Positions 11,172 through 64,000 of a DNA stretch of 64,000 nucleotides are shown here, piece by piece (position 1 is the first letter of the stretch; every line of letters starts with the position of its first letter). A program made the position numbers and the translations under genes. Source of the stretch: Thozetella sp. PMI_491 (taxonomy: Eukaryota > Ascomycota > Sordariomycetes > Chaetosphaeriales > Chaetosphaeriaceae); contig MU270029.1 of the NCBI GenBank assembly GCA_021432635.1, positions 671,611 to 735,610 of the forward strand. Reading direction: 5' to 3'. The notes beneath the pieces were generated by a model that did not search any database, was not told the origin of the DNA, and was given only the letters and a program-made list of their open reading frames with translations.

Positions 11172-12032
11172 TCACTGCCCACCCCCTTGGTCTTGGTCCA
11201 TTGCTGGATACGTCAGCAGTTCGCTCATGGGACTCAGGCTCTCGTCCTGGCCCGCCATCGAGGACGACGCCACGAAGGACGACGACGGTGACGGCGTCTC
11301 CCAGTAGAGGTCCTCGACAGATGCTGTGTCACGATTCAAAAAGTCAGCTAAAACGGCACCCCCGAAACAAAGTTTAGGCCAGTCTGCACCACGACCACTG
11401 GGGAAGGGGGAGGGGGCAGCAGCAGTCCCATTCCCCCCCGTCCCCCCCGTCCCCCCCCCTTCAGAGGTCGTTCCCCCCTCCAAATTCGCTCCCCAACTTC
11501 CGCTTCGGAGACCGAAAGAAAACGTACCCTGGTCCTCGAGGCTGTCATCTGCGGTGATGGACCCCTTCTTGATCGCCCGTTTCTCGAATCGGACAATGTC
11601 CTTAGGGTCGACGATCCTGCCGCGCAAGGTGAAGAGAGTGTCCTTTGGCGGATCTTCCCGTTCTCTGCGGCGCTTCGTCTTGATCATGGCCAAATATTCG
11701 GAGCCCTTGATGTATTTGGTGTCTAGGTTCCACTTCTTGATCTGGGTCTTGTACTGCTTTTCCCTGCGAACGCAAATGCATGCGTCCAATTAGCGGCCAG
11801 TCGACACCGGGCCCCGGGGGGCGGCGGCGACTCGGAGCGCCGCCAGGGCCTTGGGTTGGGCTGGGTTTAGGGGGGGAAGAGGGCAAAGAGGCATCTCTTT
11901 ATCTTACGTTGCTTTGAAGTAATGCTGGTTCTCCATCTCCTTCATGACATCCTTGAGCTTCATGCTGCTGTAGAGATGGGTAATTGCATCCCGGTATGCC
12001 TCCCAGTCCTCCGGCCTTGTGGGCCGGAACAT
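11172..12032 (-). CDS. Clr5-domain protein, three exons
   Basis: Small protein built on the fungal Clr5 domain, a short helical module found at the N-terminus of many ascomycete proteins and named after S. pombe Clr5. Model: exons 12032-11908, 11763-11528 and 11323-11172, giving 170 aa. The domain starts at once: MFRPTRPEDWEAYRDAITHL, then KDVMKEMENQHYFKAT, and across the first intron EKQYKTQIKKWNLDTKYIK. This has the family order W..YR..I..LY, then H.F.AT, then KQYK..I.KW. Introns are 144 and 204 nt with donors GTAAGA and GTACGT; the second has a GCTGAC branch site before the acceptor. The upstream frame has no other ATG after its stop, so the start is well fixed. The C-terminal 50 residues are acidic and Ser/Pro-rich (DLYWETPSPSSSF), without a catalytic or ankyrin extension. 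Function unknown; possibly chromatin or regulatory. Confidence 0.85.
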
Positions 12033-15000
12033 GCTGGCTCGGCGGTCTTTGGTCACTCTCTTCGGTCCGTTTCTGCAGCTGTTGCCGCTGTATTGGGTGC
12101 GCCCAGGGGTCGCGCCTAGGCTGGTTCGGACACCGAAGCACCGCTGCGATGGGAGCGTGGGGAGGCTTCGTTAGTGGGCTTCTAGAAGAGCAATAGAAGG
12201 CCGGGAGCGCCGGGAGGAACGTAGTATTGGGTTGTTTCCAGAAGCCAGAGATGCAGGGACGAGATCGAAGGAGCCCCCAACTTATACATACTACAGGCCC
12301 AGACCCAGCCCATAAGCAAGCCAGGCAGGAGGACAGCTCTGAGGTTTAATGTGTGTGCTTGGGGAAGGGGTTAAGCTGGCCCAGGTCCTGTGCGCGCGGA
12401 GCGTGGTGGGGGCCGGGTGCCATGCCAGGTCCTCTTCTCTCTCTCTCTTTTCTCTCTCTCTCTCCTCTCCGCCTTGCCTGCCTACCTGGCACCCCTTACG
12501 CCATTACCTTACCTTACGCCCCCCCCCCCCCCCTCTTCTTCCTTCTTCCCCCCCCTCCTCGCCTCCCACAGCCCACTACCCACTGGGGCGCGCCCTCGTC
12601 TTAGGGCTCCCTAGGCCTCCTACCGCAACACAACACCCGGCCGCGCTCGAACAACCCACCGTACCGTCTGCTGGCATTCCCACCACAAGTGCCTCGCAGA
12701 AAAGCCCAGAGGTGTCCAACTAAGGCCCGCGTGGGGCCCGTTGGGGTCAGAGTCAGACGGGGGTTGTGGCTATCCTTGTAAGCGGCTTCCCCAATGCCCG
12801 TTGGCCTCGAGCGAGCCAATTGACGGCTCCGCACAAGTTCCCAGCAGCATCACACCTTCCTCGGACAAGCCCTAGGGCTTCGGGCAAGAAGAAGAGGGAG
12901 GGATTCGTGGCTCGAACCGCACTAGGGATCCTTTGGGCTGCAAGTGAAGTGGGCGGCATCGCGATTCTCGAACACATCGCCTTCTTGCCGGGGCGCTGCG
13001 GGCGCTGCGGGCACAGTGCCGGCCCACCCCCCCCTCCGCATCGAAGGATCGCAGCATGCGCTCACAGCGTCGCACTCTGCTACCTGCTGCTTCTACCTCT
13101 AATGCTTTGTTCTTCTTCCCCTGCTACGGCGTCTTCACTTAGGCACTCTTATGCCCGTCGCCCTAGTTCCCCGGGGGGAGAGGAGGGGGGCCGGAAGGGG
13201 GCGGGATTTCTGCTGGTCCGCTGTGCAGCGGACGTTACACCCATCGCATCGTTTAGCAGGCCCTGTCTATGGGTACCACATATAGTTACACATCGTTTTT
13301 TTTTGGCGCGCTCAACAATCCAACTACCCTAGCCTTTCGCTGCAACCCACACCACGCATTAGAGCCCTAGGAGCAAGGGAAGGGCAGCAGTGGAGGAGGA
13401 GAGGAGCCAAGGGAGCAATAAGAGGGAAAACGCAGCGCCCCGGTACCGGGCGCCGAGCACCGATCACCGACCGCGTCGGGGAGCAGGGAGGAGGAAGAGA
13501 GTGTAGAAGGAGAAAGAGGGGTGCGCGAGGCGCGGAAGGTTTTCTTTTTGCGAGGCGCCGCCCCAGAGTATGGTCGGTTCCAGGCCGAGTTCGCCATCTA
13601 TTGCCGCCGCAGCGCGCGTATTTTGCGGCTTTGGGGGAGGGGGGGGGTGCTTCGTGCACCCACACACACACACTGGGCAAATAAAATGCCGCCTGACGAG
13701 ACAAAAGACGGCTCGGATTAGGCAAACACTTTTTTTTTCTTTTTGTCTTGGGGTTTTTTACCTCGTACGCCTGCTCGACCCTCTACTGGTCATGTACGAG
13801 GCCCCTTTGCAAGCCAAGTGCGTCAATCTGCATTGGACTTTCATGGGACTCTGCAGGCTAGACCTGCACCTTGTGCCAGTCCTGCACCTGGCGTCGCAAT
13901 GTGGCCCACTGGGCGGCTCAGGTCGTCCCTAAAACGGATGATTGGCCCTCCCACCGCCTTGATCCAAACGGCGGCCGCACGCCCCTCCCCATGCCCCCCT
14001 TCCTCGTCCGCTTGCCCCTTTGTGCACTAAGCTCCTGTGCGTGATGGGTAGTTAGGTACAGCGGCTAAGGTATTCTGCATCGTATCGTGCTGTACTGTGC
14101 TGAGCACATCCTCGTACAGCCGCATCCCGCCTCTGCAGACTCAGTCTCGACTCCTCCCACCAGGGATTTAACACACACGGATACACACACCGCACACCTC
14201 AGCCCACCAGCCGGCTGTCCGGGCACGGGCGGAGGTGCCGGGGGCCTCGTTGCGTTGCAATATTTGAATCAGATGACAATCCTTCTAGGCTACTCAATTT
14301 AGACGCGATAAATACAAGACCAGGTCCCAGACAGGCGCCAATAGCGCCGTCTCAGCGCCATAGTACATACGTACATGTCCATCACCACTTACCCTCCCCC
14401 ACAGCCTAGGAAACGGGGGGGCGCAGAAACGTGGCAGCCCGTCACGTCTGGGACCCGGAACCAACCTAAGCTCCGTAGCCGAGAGCGCCAGGGAGGGATC
14501 GCGAAGGAGGGGGAGGGGCAACCGAGTGGGAGGAGACGATGGAGGAGGGGGGCGAAAGGGGGGGGGTTAGAGCGAAGCAGACCATAAAGGGGGGGGGGGG
14601 CGGTCGGAGGGGAGGAGTGGAGTCGGGACCAGCTGAGCCAAAAACATTCCGAACGCCTCTCTATCGGCGTGTCGCCGGTGAGAGGACATTTAAGGATATA
14701 CTGACTTTCTCGACCTTGTGAACAGACGCCGTGGTCAAGAGGCAGGAAACATAGACCCCCCCGCCCCAGCCCCGTAGAGCTGGGGGTTAGGTTTGCCTCG
14801 CGAGATGGAGGGCTTGCTATGTCGCATTGCTTGCTCCACGGGCACGGGAGGGAGGGCGGACGAGGACTCTCACAGGTCCACGTCGATCCAGTCAGGAACA
14901 AGGACGTTGAGACCCGTTCCCGACGGCCCTAGGATGCCTACGCTACCTTCATGACTAGGGTTCCACAGAGCGTGCCTCCCTCGTCCTCCCCATACAAGCC

Positions 15001-23206: not shown

Positions 23207-24248
23207 TCAGAGATTAAAGTCTTCGTCTGGGTTCGCCCCGTTGAGGTGATTCGGGTTAGTGACATCGGGCTTGTAGTAGCGGTAAAATTGGTCCGCGGCC
23301 GGCAGCTCCTTGACCTTGCCCTCCTTCTTCTTCATCACCCTACCGTACTTTTCCACGTCGATCGTGTTCTCCTTTCGCCACTCGGTGAGCTTGTCGAAGT
23401 TGATGCACTGCTTGTTGATCGACATGTCCGGGAACGGGTATTCTTGCTCCTTGACCCAGTGCATGGTAACAAGGTTGACGTTGCCGCTGCACTGGAGCGT
23501 CTGCAGCACCATGTCGACGCAGTGGTTGATGTGCACCTCGTGCATCTCGCCCTTGAGCGTCTTGTGGTGGAAGCGGCCGCCCGTTTCGTTGTAGTACTTG
23601 CCGTACACCATCCGCCGCAGCGTGTTCAGGCAGTGGATTTGGTGGAACACGTCGAAGATGGCGACGTAGGCGTCGTCGCCCAGGCCCCAGTCCTCGTCCT
23701 CCAGCTTCGCCACCGTCGACGGGTCCTTGCCCATGGCGCGGACCTGGTCGGAGGTGACTGGGATGAAGCGAGTCAGCTCCCACTCTTCCCACACCTCGTC
23801 GGCGGCCGGATTCGGCATCTGGCGCCCGATTCCCGGGTGCTTGGGAGGGAAGAGGGTCCCGTTCAGCTTGGCCGGCTTCAATTCCAAGTCCACCATGTCA
23901 TACACGGGACCTATGGGCGGAGGGATATCAGCGCGCAGTTCTCCCAGAGAAATGACTTTGGCATTTGCCCGCTCACTCACTGTATGCATTGGCGCGAATC
24001 AGCCCAGCATTCATCCTCCAGTGCGTCTCGTAGTACCACGTCCCAAAGAGGCCGCAGGACACCAGGAACAGGAGCACGTTGAGGCCGGTGCCGATGATGA
24101 ACTTGAGGCCCCATGGCCTCGCCTCCCGAGGGCTTATCTTGAGCTCGTGGCTCAGGAAGCCGAGATGCTCGTGATCGTTGTCATCCGTGGAGCCTCTGGA
24201 CAGCGACGGCGACACGGGCGCGTACTTGGGCTCGACCTTGGGCGCCAT
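23207..24248 (-). CDS. UstYa-family (DUF3328) oxidase, RiPP tailoring enzyme
   Basis: Member of the fungal UstYa family, membrane-anchored copper-type oxidases that crosslink or hydroxylate core peptides in the ustiloxin, phomopsin, asperipin and cyclochlorotine pathways. Model: exon 1 24248-23981, intron 23980-23911 (70 nt, GTGAGT...CATAG), exon 2 23910-23207; 323 aa. A hydrophilic N-terminus of about 45 residues is followed by one transmembrane helix (about 48-72, KFIIGTGLNVLLFLVSCGLF), giving type II topology with the rest in the secretory lumen. After the splice the family's YSPVYD start of the luminal domain appears. Motif 1 is HQIHC (179-183) and motif 2 is HINHC (216-220), the two HxxHC signatures. 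N-glycosylation sequons occur at N106 and N197. Length suits the family. It is transcribed away from the precursor-peptide gene at 26012 across 1.76 kb. I am sure of the family; the substrate is inferred from the neighbour. Confidence 0.93.
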
Positions 24249-26011
24249 GGTGGTGGAGGGTTCACGAGAGACCAGACCGTCGGGTTTGGGTCGGGAGCGG
24301 CGGACGACGTTGTGGTTGGCCTCGGCGGGGTTGAAATCGAAAAGTTGACGATAGGGGCCGGGATGGCAGGTGGCGTGACATACCCAAGGCTGAGGCGCCG
24401 GGTCCAGCGAGAAAGGGAAAGTCCAAGCCCTCTATTAACGAGCTGCTCGAAACGCGTTAACTCGACGGCACAGCCCACATAAACCCACAACCCCTGAGTG
24501 GAGGCTAACCTTGTCGAGCTAGGCATTGATTACACCCCCGGCCTCAAATTCTAGGCATGTCAATTGGGTAAATTACTGCATAATTCCGATACTCTGTGGG
24601 ACATGAGTCGCCTTGAGATCTCAGCCGCTGTACAGACCCAAACCCCTGAAGAACAATCCTCTAGTAGGCTTCAAAGTACGATTTTCGTTGTATCTCTTTT
24701 CCTCGCCCTTTTTTTTTATCATGTGTTTTCGGCGACTTCGCCCAGGGATTTCGGACGTCTGGCGACATCCCCGGCTCGAGTTGCGAGCTAGCCAATCAAA
24801 ACCAGGGGCGTGGTGTATGCCAACCCCTTGGCAGGGAATCCCACGGTCTTGGGACTTGCTAGAATCCTTCTAAAGCCGATCTCAACAGGGTTAGTCCATG
24901 TCTGGGCTTCCTCCCGGCTGGGAAGGTGTTTACGCCCGTCAGATACTTGGCTAATCCCCTCCCGTCAAAAGGGGCATCACCTCGCGAGCAAATACCTAGT
25001 ACTATGCGCCTACTACGCTATCTAGTCGAAATCTAGGCATGCTTGGGTCTCACACCCGGTCGATAAAGTCCCTATGCTAGAAGAATCACGAGGCAAGCCG
25101 TCGGCCGATTGGACTTGCTCGCCAAAGTTCGTCAAATAGTTCGTACACTATTACGAAGTAGAACGTCTCAAGAGCGGGGTTTGACAAACCGCAAAGGCAT
25201 TGCACACCCCTACGATGCCTAAGTTATTAATCCGAGCTCTAAAAGGGGCATCGACCCACACACAGCACAGGAGGCATGAAAGTCTTGGCACGCTCAATAT
25301 TAACCTCACAGACCATTGCGTACTATGTATGCTGCGCCCGCCAGTGCAAACGCGTTCGACAGTTCAGCGGGTGTGAGGCGGGAGACAAGTTACGGCATGC
25401 ACCGCAGGCACCGTATGCACGGCAAGAGAGCGGTATCGAACGCTAATTGGTAGGTGCGCGAACTTACTAAGTGCTATGTTCGCTGGGTAATCAGGTTAGT
25501 TGCGCGGAAACTAAGGTTTGGCGAGGTTGCAACGGCTACTAGCGCCCGCGCGCCCCTCCCTTGCAGGCTCCCAGATATGTATTGTAAGCACAAGTTGGCA
25601 GCGCGAGCGGTACCCTACCTGTTCTAGTCCTATGCCGTCTATCATGTTTCTCCGTTTACCCACCGCCGCCCTCTCCTCTGGTTGGCAACTCCAGCGATAG
25701 CCAACCGACGGCGACGGGGGCGAGGGACCTTGAGCTCCAGACACCTAGCCCATGACAGGAAGGTAGGCTTCCTCCGGCGCGGTCGCCCGAGGGGGACCTG
25801 ATACGCACCCTGAAGCAAATGTCCGTTGCATTAGAAGTCCCGAGGCTGGCGACAGCCTTCCCGAACGAGATAGGCAGTACCAACTCCTCGGCGCCAAGTT
25901 GGGCCAGTGCCTATAACATCGCCGTGGCCTGCACTCCCTCTCCCGGCCAGGCTTCCAGTCCTTCGCACTTATCTCCTCATCTAGCAACTTTTCATCCAAC
26001 AGCTTTTCACC
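24249..26011. promoter_or_regulatory. Shared divergent intergenic region of the RiPP pair
   Basis: This 1.76 kb separates two genes transcribed in opposite directions, the UstYa oxidase (-) and the precursor peptide (+), so it must contain both promoters. No credible gene lies inside. On the precursor side there is a TATA-like element at 25912-25917 and a pyrimidine-rich leader with CAAC motifs up to the ATG. I could not identify a specific regulator site. Confidence 0.6.
25912..25917 (+). promoter_or_regulatory. TATA-like element of the precursor gene
   Basis: TATAAC lies 95-100 nt upstream of ATG 26012 and is followed by a CT-rich stretch typical of fungal start regions. The assignment rests on position and composition only. 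Confidence 0.4.
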
Positions 26012-26502
26012 ATGCGTTTCCACTTCGTCGTTGCTGCTGCCTTGGCCACCATCGCCGTGGGGGCCCCTGTCGAGCAGGTAAGAAGGACCCCGCCCCCTCC
26101 CCAGGCGCGCAGAGGCGGAGACTTATACCGCCACAGGCCGAGAAGCGTGAACCCGCCGAGTACACTTTCAGCACCCTCAAGATCATCGGGAAGGATGGTG
26201 CCGAGGTGGAGAAGCGCGAGCCTCAGTACACTAGCCCCAACGCACTGAGGCTCAAGGAGAAGGAGAAGCGCGAGCCCCAGTACACTAGCCCCAACGCTCT
26301 GCGGCTCAAGGAGAAGGAGAAGCGCGAGCCCGCCGAGTACACTTTCAGCACCCTCAAGATCATCGGGAAGGACGGTGCCGAGGTGGAGAAGCGCGAGCCT
26401 CAGTACACTAGCCCCAACGCTCTGAGGCTGAAGGAGAAGGAGAAGCGCGAGCCCCAGTACACTAGCCCCAACGCTCTGCGGCTCAAGGAGATCAAGGAGT
26501 AA
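26012..26502 (+). CDS. Secreted multi-core RiPP precursor peptide (dikaritin-like)
   Basis: Candidate precursor of ribosomally made, modified peptides. Model: exon 1 26012-26077, intron 26078-26136 (59 nt, GTAAGA...CACAG), exon 2 26137-26502; 143 aa. Residues 1-18 form a signal peptide (MRFHFVVAAALATIAVGA). After APVEQAEKR come six cassettes, each opening with Glu-Pro; the first five end in Lys-Arg, a kexin site. Type A (23 aa) begins EPAEYTFSTLKIIGKDGA and ends EVEKR. Type B is EPQYTSPNALRLKEKEKR. The order is A B B A B B, the last B ending LKEIKE. All repeats are identical at protein level up to that end. Signal peptide, KR-separated near-identical repeats and a divergent UstYa gene are the hallmarks of dikaritin precursors such as UstA and PhomA. 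The conserved Tyr-Thr is the likely modified part of the core. Alternatives: an unmodified kexin-excised secreted peptide, or a pheromone precursor, though no alpha-pheromone WC...C core is present. The product is unknown to me. Confidence 0.9.
26149..26325 (+). repeat. Precursor super-unit 1 (A1-B1-B2)
   Basis: A 177-nt block made of cassette A1 (26149-26217), B1 (26218-26271) and B2 (26272-26325). It is duplicated as super-unit 2. Confidence 0.95.
26326..26502 (+). repeat. Precursor super-unit 2 (A2-B3-B4 plus stop)
   Basis: A second 177-nt block: A2 (26326-26394), B3 (26395-26448), B4 with stop (26449-26502). A2 differs from A1 by two synonymous changes (GAA/GAG, GAT/GAC). B3 shares CCT and AGG codons with B1, and B4 shares CCC and CGG with B2, so the three-cassette block was copied as one unit. 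Only the last few codons of B4 differ in protein. Confidence 0.95.
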
Positions 26503-26550
26503 TGCGTGGACAGCCCTCGTACTGGCTCCAACGCCCTGACGCTCAAAGAT
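26503..26550 (+). pseudogene. Decayed extra B cassette beyond the stop codon
   Basis: The sequence directly after the TAA still reads in the same frame as CVDSPRTGSNALTLKDQ, which aligns with the B cassette (P, T, N-A-L, L-K conserved; Glu to Asp at the end; the core Tyr lost by a one-codon gap). The TAA and following TGC occupy the place of the expected Lys-Arg codons. I infer a former seventh cassette cut off by a stop and now drifting. Confidence 0.6.
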
Positions 26551-60943: not shown

Positions 60944-61073
60944 TCTGGGGAATTTAATTAGATTTTTTTTATGGAGCCACGAGCCTAGCAGAGAGTGACA
61001 AGGGACTTCACTCTCAAGGGAGCAGGGGGAGGGACGCGACCCTGGGCCGGGGCTTCCTGCGACGGGCGAGGGG

Positions 61074-61121
<48 letters not shown>

Positions 61122-61135
61122 CGGCGGGGGGGGGT

Positions 61136-61181
<46 letters not shown>

Positions 61182-64000
61182 GACCGTTTTGGGGGGGGGG
61201 GGGGGGGGGCAACCCAAAAAAAAATTGGGTGTGTACTTTGCTCTATTGTCTCTTGTGGCCTGCGCTGCCTGGATTGAATGGTGTGTGGCTGTTCTCAGTA
61301 ATTCTCTGATAAATTGGCCCGGCTGTCAGTGCCAATGTGCAATGCGCGCTCGCAGCAAGCAGCAATGCAAGCGATGCGATGCGATGGCTGTGGATTGGAT
61401 GATGGGATGCATCGAGCGAAAATCTGCGCGCTGTCCGCCCCAAAAGGGTGTACATGGGTACCTCGTTCCCGCTAGCCAAGTGTCCGCCCCAGCTTGGTCC
61501 AGACCGTTATTTTGGTTGCCCACAGGCCCATGGGCCTGCAGCTCCAGTTGCGAAGCTCCTTAGCGCGCAGTCCGTGTTGCACTCGACGTTTATTTTTCCT
61601 TCTGACCTTCCCCTTCTCGCGACCTACCCCTTTCCGGGCTAAGGCGGGCGCCCCTCTCAAGACGTCCGCCTCCGAAGAGGGCCAAGCCCGGCGACTGGAA
61701 GAAACCCCGACCCAGCCAGTGGAATAATAAAATTGGTCATGGTGCGTTCGGCGACATGGAGTACGGGCAGCCTCGCGCTCCCGAGCAGGCACGAGCCGGG
61801 GACTATCAAGAGGCTATCAGGGCCAAGCGACCCGGCGACAGGCCCAGGGCCAGGTTTCCAGAAGCATCGGTCGGACCGAAGCAGACCTTAGCACCGCAAC
61901 GACAGACATCAGCTCCCTGTCCTACAAAATAACCAAACGGGCAAGACCTGCCCCTCGACCGCCGAGCCACGAGATGCCTGTAACATCCCTGCAAGGTGTA
62001 TCCGTATCCGTCCAGCTGCAGGCCGTACCGCCCGCGCTCGACAGTTGGTTGACTCTGGCCTGAAGATCGCCGCTGCACCAGCTCACACACCTGACTCCCA
62101 GCTACGACATATTATCCAGCAGGCTGTTTTAATCCCCGTTCCTATGCCTGCAAGGGTCGGTGACCGCTACGACCTGCTAATGTACCTTGGGGCCCCAACT
62201 ATAGCGCCCTTGCTGTGGATCTTAATCGACCAGGCGGGCAACGGAGCGGGAGCGCAGGCATGAAATAACGCCTGAAATGAGGAAGGTGCAGTTCTGCAGG
62301 TCTTGCCGCACCACCGCCGGCTCGGGAAGGGGGCCGTGGGCGAACGTTGCCCGCCGCCAGGCACTGACTGACTTGGCCCAGCATCATCGTCAGCATCATC
62401 GCCGGCGGGCGGGCGCCCTCTTCTTGTTCGCTGGTCGGAGCTTTCCCTCCCCCTCTCGCTTGTGCGCGCCTGTCGTTGTCGAACCGGACGACGCTGGCGG
62501 CTCCGCTGTGCAAGCGGGAGTCGGAACAGGCTACTGCCCGTGGCGGCTGTGATCATGATGTGACCTGGCTCCGAATCCCACCTTGCACCTCGGTCGGTAC
62601 CCTGTGTGCGGAAGATGGCGCCCCTCCCTGCCCCCTGCCCGCGCGCGCCCAGAGAGCAGGCATGAACCCCCCTCCCCAGCCCTCCCCCCCTAGGTCCCCA
62701 ACGGGCACAAGCGAAAACGGGCAACGGGAGTAGGGTGGAGAGTGAGCGAGCGATCAAAGGGGGGGTGGGATGTGTGGTGGGAAGTGAGTTGCGAGGCCCG
62801 CAAAAAGCTTGGTGTCAAGGTGTACAACGAGCGGCTGCGTGTTGGGAGAAGGAAGGTGAGACCTAGGCCCTCAAGCTTTTTCTCTCTAGTGTCAGATCTG
62901 ATCGGGACCGTACCGATTCGGGGCCTCATGTCTCTGTCGTAACATTGTAGCCAGCACCGTGCTAGGTTCTTTGGTTCCTCTTTTATTTCTCCTTTATTCC
63001 TTTTCTCCTCTGGTCTCGCTAGTCGATCGATCTTCCCGCTCGCAAAAGTCTCGCTGCGGCGCTGTTTCGCATTCTCGTACTTCTGATATGGACACCCAAG
63101 ACACAAAACCTGGTACGCTGCGACTCGGCCTCACGCTGGGCAAATCTAGGGGACGCCATCTGGCCCATTGCTCCCGCCGCCAATGTCTCCTACTTCGTGT
63201 CTCCTGACGTTTTCAGGGCGTCTAGGCCCGGACATTGGCCGCCACCTTTGCTAGACACAACTTTGGGAACGCGCCCCCTGGGTTACGCAGCGGGAGGAGA
63301 GGGTAGGCTGCGCAGGAAAGCGAACGGGGGTAGCAGGCCACGATTCACACATATATTATAACGGTACGGGACGGTACATGGGTGGTACTCGCAAGAGATC
63401 GACGTGGCCATGTGTGCGTTGCATTGTATGATACGGGGTACGTACCCTACTTCTCCTCAGCCACCCACTCTCCCCGATGTCGCCTGTCTCAGTCCTAGTC
63501 CCCTCCCTTCTCCGTCCTTGAAGCCTGGGGGCATGTACGAAGTAATTGTTCGCGGCTCCCGTGCGGCGTAGTGTACAAGTACCCCCCAGGTTGTCCAAGG
63601 GTCTCCCCTACTACACCCCGTTCTCCTGGCCGGCTCGAGCGTGTTAAGCCTAGCGCCCCTTTCCTCTACCAGTGCCCCTGCCAACACCTGGACAGGACGC
63701 TAACAACACACGGTAGTGCTAGCCTGAGATCCTCGTACCGTAGGTGGAACAGATGCTCTCCCTATCTCGATGCTCCCTCTCGCTCCGCCCGTGTCTGCCG
63801 GAGCTTGTCTTCATACCACAATTCCAGAAAGACGCGGTGAAGGGCCAGACAGAAGCGAGATAGGGGCGGCCGGCAGTGGGTTTAAGCGCAGCCCACACCC
63901 CAAGTTCTGCTTGGGGTCACGCGTGTGTTGGAGGAGAAGCGCCGCCTCTCCCCCTCCCCCCCCCAACCCCCCTGACGAGTGTTCCGGTTTTGTCGGTCCC
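60944..64000. other. Right-end region without a gene
   Basis: Promoter side of the Zn2Cys6 gene with a giant G tract, then 2.8 kb in which I see no supportable gene. Short open frames on both strands (for example 62690-63106) lack domains. A pyrimidine-rich stretch at 62960-63060 could be the promoter of a gene outside the window. Confidence 0.45.
61075..61209. repeat. Poly-G tract, about 135 nt
   Basis: Almost pure G on the + strand with a few interruptions (GCGGC near 61122, GT at 61135, TGACCGTTTT at 61181-61190). It lies about 130 nt upstream of the transcription factor start codon. It could form G-quadruplexes or be an assembly/sequencing artefact; the N gap at 10619 also follows a C run. 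Confidence 0.9.

Follow-up and report, generated by a model that had tools for sequence, protein, structure and literature searches.

Do a UstYa-type oxidase gene and a neighbouring repeat-protein gene of Thozetella sp. PMI_491 together make a modified peptide, or do they merely lie side by side? The two genes are found in a stretch of 64,000 nucleotides (contig MU270029.1, positions 671,611 to 735,610, assembly GCA_021432635.1), which we call the window and whose own numbering is used below. A sequence-only reading had proposed a minimal dikaritin-type locus for a ribosomally synthesised and post-translationally modified peptide (RiPP). Gene models, domain matches and comparison within the genome make it likely, in our judgement, that this is a two-gene RiPP locus of dikaritin type, in which a Kex2-processed repeat protein (KEP) would be the precursor of a UstYa-modified peptide; cross-linking at tyrosine (Tyr) in particular is only slightly favoured.

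The oxidase gene and the repeat precursor

The oxidase gene lies on the reverse strand (23207..24248) and is predicted to encode 323 amino acids from two exons (24248-23981 and 23910-23207), which are separated by a 70-nt intron (23980-23911, GTGAGT..CATAG). The frame of exon 2 matches PF11807 with E=2.4e-45 and 155.5 bits against a curated cut-off of 25, and both HxxHC motifs of the UstYa/DUF3328 family are in place on the same strand, HQIHC at residues 179-183 (23630..23644) and HINHC at residues 216-220 (23519..23533), as had been claimed. In an alignment of 57 sequences (the window's exon 2 with 56 of 120 listed matches), both histidines of the first motif are invariant and its cysteine is kept in at least 90%, while in the second motif the second histidine and the cysteine are invariant and the first histidine reaches at least 90%. 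A single N-terminal membrane helix is discernible by eye. The protein is matched by 196 others; among the 120 listed, the best full-length matches (61-62% identity) come from Bisporella and Pseudomassariella, followed by Apiospora, Xylariales and others. The splice position (..YS/P.YD..) is shared with an annotated relative, P0099, which can itself be read from the stretch labelled C88 below (282 of its 293 12-residue words, the other 11 fitting its single splice junction). A search of solved structures by sequence gave no match, and the predicted structure (mean pLDDT, the predicted local distance difference test, 83.3) had no worthwhile structural match among 169 chains compared.

Head to head with this gene, at a distance of 1763 bp from ATG to ATG, a second gene of 143 amino acids runs on the forward strand (26012..26502), in agreement with the size, orientation and 1.76-kb spacing first reported. 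Its exon 1 (26012-26077) encodes MRFHFVVAAALATIAVGAPVEQ, called a signal peptide by eye, and is followed by a 59-nt intron (26078-26136, GTAAGA..CACAG) and by exon 2 (26137-26502), which holds the repeats. The six KR-delimited repeats of the sequence-only reading stand in so far as KR precedes every unit (residues 25, 48, 66, 84, 107 and 125); the description is refined in that the units are of two kinds, in the order A-B-B-A-B-B, and that the sixth is shortened by the stop. Type A, EPAEYTFSTLKIIGKDGAEVEKR, has 23 residues and occupies units 1 (26149..26217) and 4 (26326..26394); type B, EPQYTSPNALRLKEKEKR, has 18 and occupies units 2 (26218..26271), 3 (26272..26325), 5 (26395..26448) and 6 (26449..26502), the last ending in KEIKE and the stop without a terminal KR. 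All six lie on the forward strand, and both types fit the pattern [E/Q]-Y-T-x(3)-(A)-L-[K/R]-[I/L]. Tandem Repeats Finder describes the A-B-B block as duplicated, with a period of 177 bp and 97% matches, and a scan of the 64-kb window for repeated 5-mers found this locus, on both strands, as the sole place. A survey of KEPs defined them by at least three tandem repeats of at least 8 amino acids, none above 100, between KR, KK, RK or RR (PMC7329392), and the six units between KR sites fall under that definition.

The repeats also carry a signature of coding constraint. The two A units differ at two sites, both synonymous; the four B units have eight variable sites, of which four are synonymous, and the four non-synonymous ones all lie in the final codons of unit 6, where the repeat has ended. 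Within the unit cores, 6/6 variable nucleotide sites are thus synonymous, whereas random substitutions would alter the amino acid in 79% of cases (66% for transitions), and we therefore regard the repeat as a constrained, translated gene. This bears on the suggestion that the pair is a decaying relic, out of use, with a unit past the stop already lost. Behind the precursor's stop, an untranslated stretch on the forward strand (26521..26549) aligns with a B unit over 24 of 29 bases (score 33, compared with at most 22 for 1967 stretches drawn at random from the window); it looks as if the number of precursor units may have changed over time, and this stretch and the missing KR of the last unit are what decay would leave behind. 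Yet reading frames, introns and, where present, catalytic motifs are intact in both genes, and the core variation is purely synonymous, so that we consider a relic very improbable.

Related pairs and the wealth of UstYa genes

The closest UstYa paralogs in the same genome, labelled here C9, C88, C20, C84 and C76, are 57%, 56%, 54%, 52% and 52% identical to the window's enzyme; the next reaches 38%, and the grouping of five rests on this drop from 52% to 38%, a C19 fragment (52% over 97 aa) being left out. Three of the five (C9, C20 and C84) have a divergent repeat precursor beside them, a count from which the window pair, picked for its pairing, is excluded. The ATG-to-ATG gaps are 1083 bp at C9, 808 bp at C20 and 622 bp at C84, and the units read AVDPLYSDGDLGFYPLRALAVKEKEKK, ESSWYATGPNEDAVGKR and EPGTYGVDTFGAIKR, respectively. 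In the models of all four precursors, including the window's, the signal peptide ends in ..AP.. and a phase-0 intron comes directly after it; such an intron apparently also stands behind the signal peptide of the C5 and C6 precursors described below, where the frame changes, and is absent from those of C3 and C7. Some resemblance extends into the units themselves, which start with EP-QY and EP-AEY in the window, EP-GTY in C84 and DP-LY in C9, and end in ALRLKEKEKR in the window compared with LRALAVKEKEKK in C9. This partial agreement of starts and tails is suggestive only, KEKEK being low complexity. Taken together, the gene models suggest that the window pair is one of a paralogous set sharing its enzyme and gene anatomy but differing in the core.

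Since three more divergent pairs occur among the five closest paralogs, the reading of the window's pair as a locus of this type is strengthened. A competing reading holds that the precursor is a KEP giving linear, unmodified peptides, pheromone-like or surface-active, and that the UstYa gene stands beside it by coincidence or serves another substrate. Such KEPs are common: 6120 of 7878 surveyed have no DUF3328 gene among their 15 nearest genes (PMC7329392), and linear, minimally modified KEP peptides have been detected in mushrooms (PMC9769878). With at least 149 UstYa matches in this genome, some chance neighbours are to be expected. The KR-EP unit start, moreover, resembles the Kex2/Ste13 processing of yeast alpha-factor, which also counts for linear products. 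Against this, if the genome held 43 KEPs, the highest count for any strain in the survey (PMC7329392), in its 72.3 Mb, any one UstYa gene would have a KEP no farther than 2.3 kb away by chance in less than 1% of cases, a rough figure as the genome may hold more; the recurrence of the layout at three of the five paralogs points the same way, and DUF3328 neighbours were almost never found by pheromone KEPs, with three exceptions (PMC7329392). Linear peptides beside an unrelated oxidase are thus improbable in our view.

Several observations nevertheless weigh against a dedicated precursor and oxidase. No repeat precursor was found in the 5.2-kb stretch read at each of the C88 and C76 paralogs, so that the check on conserved co-location proposed by the sequence-only reading, run inside this genome, was borne out at three of five places and not at these two. 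The C20 unit has no EP-xY start. Relatives of the window's precursor were found neither in the protein collection, where the search was swamped by candidates, nor elsewhere in the genome, and it is the lack outside the genome that counts here. The Pfam scan of 40 open segments of the window turned up no transporter, tyrosinase, methyltransferase or S41 peptidase like those of the classical clusters next to the pair, intron-split genes being liable to escape. DUF3328 genes are, furthermore, found in polyketide and nonribosomal peptide synthetase pathways too (PMC12048977), and eight of the 15 UstYa clusters considered next yielded no repeat precursor.

The genome as a whole is rich in UstYa genes. 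Its PF11807 matches, at least 149 when counted exon by exon, can be merged into about 125 gene places that form 91 clusters, some of which may be fragments or pseudogenes; if the gene models hold, this is a large expansion for a genome of 72 Mb. The KEP survey gives a DUF3328 count of 9399 in 1461 strains, about six per strain, as an average over all fungi, many of them with none (PMC7329392), and a strong PF11807 expansion is already known in Colletotrichum (PMC5915685). Stretches of about 10 kb around 15 UstYa clusters, taken in contig order and confined to such clusters, contained a repeat precursor in seven cases (C2:1.60M, C2:1.48M, C3:1.03M, C5:0.305M, C6:1.07M, C7:0.26M and C1:1.236M), and two further precursors lie beside top UstYa matches at C18 and C63. 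No core is common to the window and the other precursors, examples being AGIDYIKEGKR, SPDVSVNTPGDRTGIYWGKVDSEKR and SEAQSPDILYNNPAGWGKR. Dibasic sites separate the units in 10 of the 13 precursors, the window's included; those of C18 and C1 have none in the part read, and that of C63 has one. One C2 precursor, WSDDFGAADGPASGYGQDKKR (L019:7717-8219), is broken by a stretch reading N. At two other UstYa places, C38:411322 and C43:586578, a tyrosinase match lies about 0.9 and 4.6 kb away, respectively, which makes them candidates for classical dikaritin clusters.

Two of these precursors appear to spread their repeats over exons. The C20 precursor (L033:1479 downwards, reverse strand) has three WYATGPNEDAVGKR copies, each predicted to lie on an exon of its own (57 nt for two of them, the terminal exon for the third), with phase-1 introns of 55-65 nt and a weak first acceptor. 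In the C1 precursor (L012:2351-1588, reverse strand), which lies near a UstYa gene and whose unit KDSEVVDVVDKGNHLW has neither Tyr nor a dibasic site between units, the repeat KDSE[VA]VDVVDKGNHLW occurs three times, each on its own predicted exon of 48 nt with phase-0 introns of 135-138 nt, preceded by one shorter exon with the second half of the repeat. Exons are 92-94% identical and introns 65-77% in C1, and the values for C20 are 82-88% and 55-65%; exons more alike than introns are as expected if both models are right. Precursors of this exon-per-repeat kind might go undetected when annotated proteins are searched for repeats flanked by dibasic sites.

Known systems and a possible route to the product

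How, then, does the pair compare with characterised pathways? The original five-gene definition of dikaritins (cited in PMC12048977) includes a tyrosinase and several DUF3328 proteins, as well as a methyltransferase and a transporter or peptidase, neither of which the Pfam scan of segments recognised close to the pair. The lack of the first two places the window pair outside this definition: no second PF11807 place lies within 10 kb of the UstYa gene among the matches listed, and the nearest tyrosinase match (PF00264) on the window's contig, at C15:878959-879563, is about 181 kb off, one of 80 in the whole genome. Under the broad definition, in which DUF3328 is the class-defining enzyme (cited in PMC12048977), a UstYa gene beside a repeat precursor, as found here, is one mark of a dikaritin, and an oxidatively cross-linked Tyr in the product would be the other. 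With a signal peptide (by eye), Kex2-type repeats, a UstYa protein with two HxxHC motifs and three further divergent pairs, the dikaritin-type pairing put forward by the sequence-only reading finds good support.

The closest parallel is asperipin-2a of Aspergillus flavus (aprA/aprY/aprT/aprR), a functional cluster in which, as here, one repeat precursor is accompanied by a single UstYa-type oxidase and no tyrosinase (PMC6514808, PMC12048977), AprY being essential for the product (PMC6514808). It differs in having a transporter, aprT, and a reductase, aprR, neither of which has a recognised counterpart in the scanned segments around the pair, and in its core, FYYTGY, compared with QYTSPNALRL or AEYTFSTLKIIG in the window. 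Ustiloxin B (ustA, ustYa, ustYb, ustQ) shares the signal peptide (judged by eye in the window), KR-flanked repeats, core Tyr and UstYa-family oxidase; unlike the six units of the window, its precursor is described with 16 repeats of core YAIG, and its first intermediate needs UstYa, UstYb and the tyrosinase UstQ (PMC6514808). The window, in contrast, offers one UstYa, with no tyrosinase place over the distance given above. In the epichloecyclins, the product of gigA is a multi-repeat precursor whose core differs from the window's. Their ribosomal peptide undergoes Tyr-based oxidative cyclisation (PMC6514808), and the lysine methylation reported for them has no counterpart among the genes recognised at the window pair, where no methyltransferase was seen.

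The claim that the cores match no named product holds for the ustiloxin core YAIG and the asperipin core FYYTGY. Among KEPs at large, a DUF3328 neighbour was recorded for 1758 of 7878 (22%; PMC7329392). The window's precursor resembles these in its repeats, its signal peptide (by eye) and the adjoining DUF3328 gene, and is structurally nothing distinct; it differs in having no sequence relative found. That lack agrees with the proposal of an undescribed product family and gives it little weight, because 2560 of the 7878 KEPs, a third, stand alone without a homolog (PMC7329392) and orphan cores are therefore common.

If the pair works as these comparisons suggest, the precursor would enter the secretory pathway and be cleaved by Kex2 after each Lys-Arg, a carboxypeptidase would take off the KR, and the N-terminal Glu-Pro would be lost to a Ste13-type dipeptidyl peptidase, leaving peptides such as QYTSPNALRL(KEKE) and AEYTFSTLKIIG(KDGAEVE). 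In that compartment the membrane-anchored UstYa would then oxidise the peptide, most likely at Tyr, with an intramolecular ether or aryl link as the result; the charged tail would be trimmed by other peptidases, and the two unit types would give two related products. Calculated [M+H]+ values are 1162.622 for linear QYTSPNALRL and 1160.606 after loss of 2 H, 1342.725 and 1340.710 for AEYTFSTLKIIG, and 1676.897 and 1674.881 for the form with tail, QYTSPNALRLKEKE.

The modification need not be a cross-link. DUF3328 proteins make ethers, hydroxylate or chlorinate according to pathway (PMC12048977), so that the oxidation here may be of another type. The Tyr-free repeats of the C1 precursor, close to a UstYa gene, also speak for hydroxylation or another oxidation without a Tyr link, whereas Tyr is present in the unit of 12 of the 13 repeat precursors (window included), and asperipin-2a has Tyr ether links made with a single UstYa-type oxidase (PMC6514808). 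A UstYa-modified peptide without a Tyr cross-link, which would still be a product of the two-gene locus and takes its part of the likelihood given to that locus, is in our estimate unlikely without being negligible.

Surroundings and meaning of the pair

Beyond the pair itself, the Pfam scan recognised few genes nearby. On the reverse strand, a Clr5-domain segment (11907-12170, E=2.2e-11) is separated from the UstYa gene by about 11 kb and could be a regulator. A Neprosin gene (PF03080; 31403-32662, forward strand), of a peptidase family, begins about 4.9 kb past the precursor and could in principle cleave after the proline at the unit start; the remaining three Neprosin places of the genome are on contigs without a UstYa place among the matches listed. 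The interval between these two, from 11.9 to 31.4 kb, contains 119 stop-to-stop segments of at least 75 aa, mostly noise by look, and the 24 scanned gave domains only in the UstYa and Clr5 segments, though a split gene could escape. Together with the distant tyrosinase, this upholds the description of the locus as minimal as far as it was tested. Farther on, Pfam places a mitochondrial carrier near 34-35 kb, eIF3h at 38.9-40 kb, S-adenosylhomocysteine hydrolase at 41.3-43 kb and a 2-hydroxyacid dehydrogenase at 52.6-53.4 kb. A mostly-G run of 140 bp (61070-61209, 89% matches) is probably a low-complexity or assembly feature.

On its own, the window pair is one more orphan KEP/UstYa locus among many predicted, of a kind already known; the paralogous pair set and the genome's richness in UstYa genes are more striking than the single pair. 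A tentative extension, which we rate as possible and rather below an even chance, is that an oxidase lineage of 52-57% identity has kept a fixed gene anatomy while its cores were replaced wholesale, in the C20 copy even by a precursor with one exon per repeat; the enzyme would read position and flanks (EP-xY at the start, LR..KEKEK in the tail) and not a fixed core, so that the set would amount to a natural platform for core swapping. Sequence search finds no solved relative of UstYa oxidases, and closely related enzymes from a single genome, accompanied by different precursors with similar gene anatomy, may serve as a panel for learning which part of the substrate is recognised.

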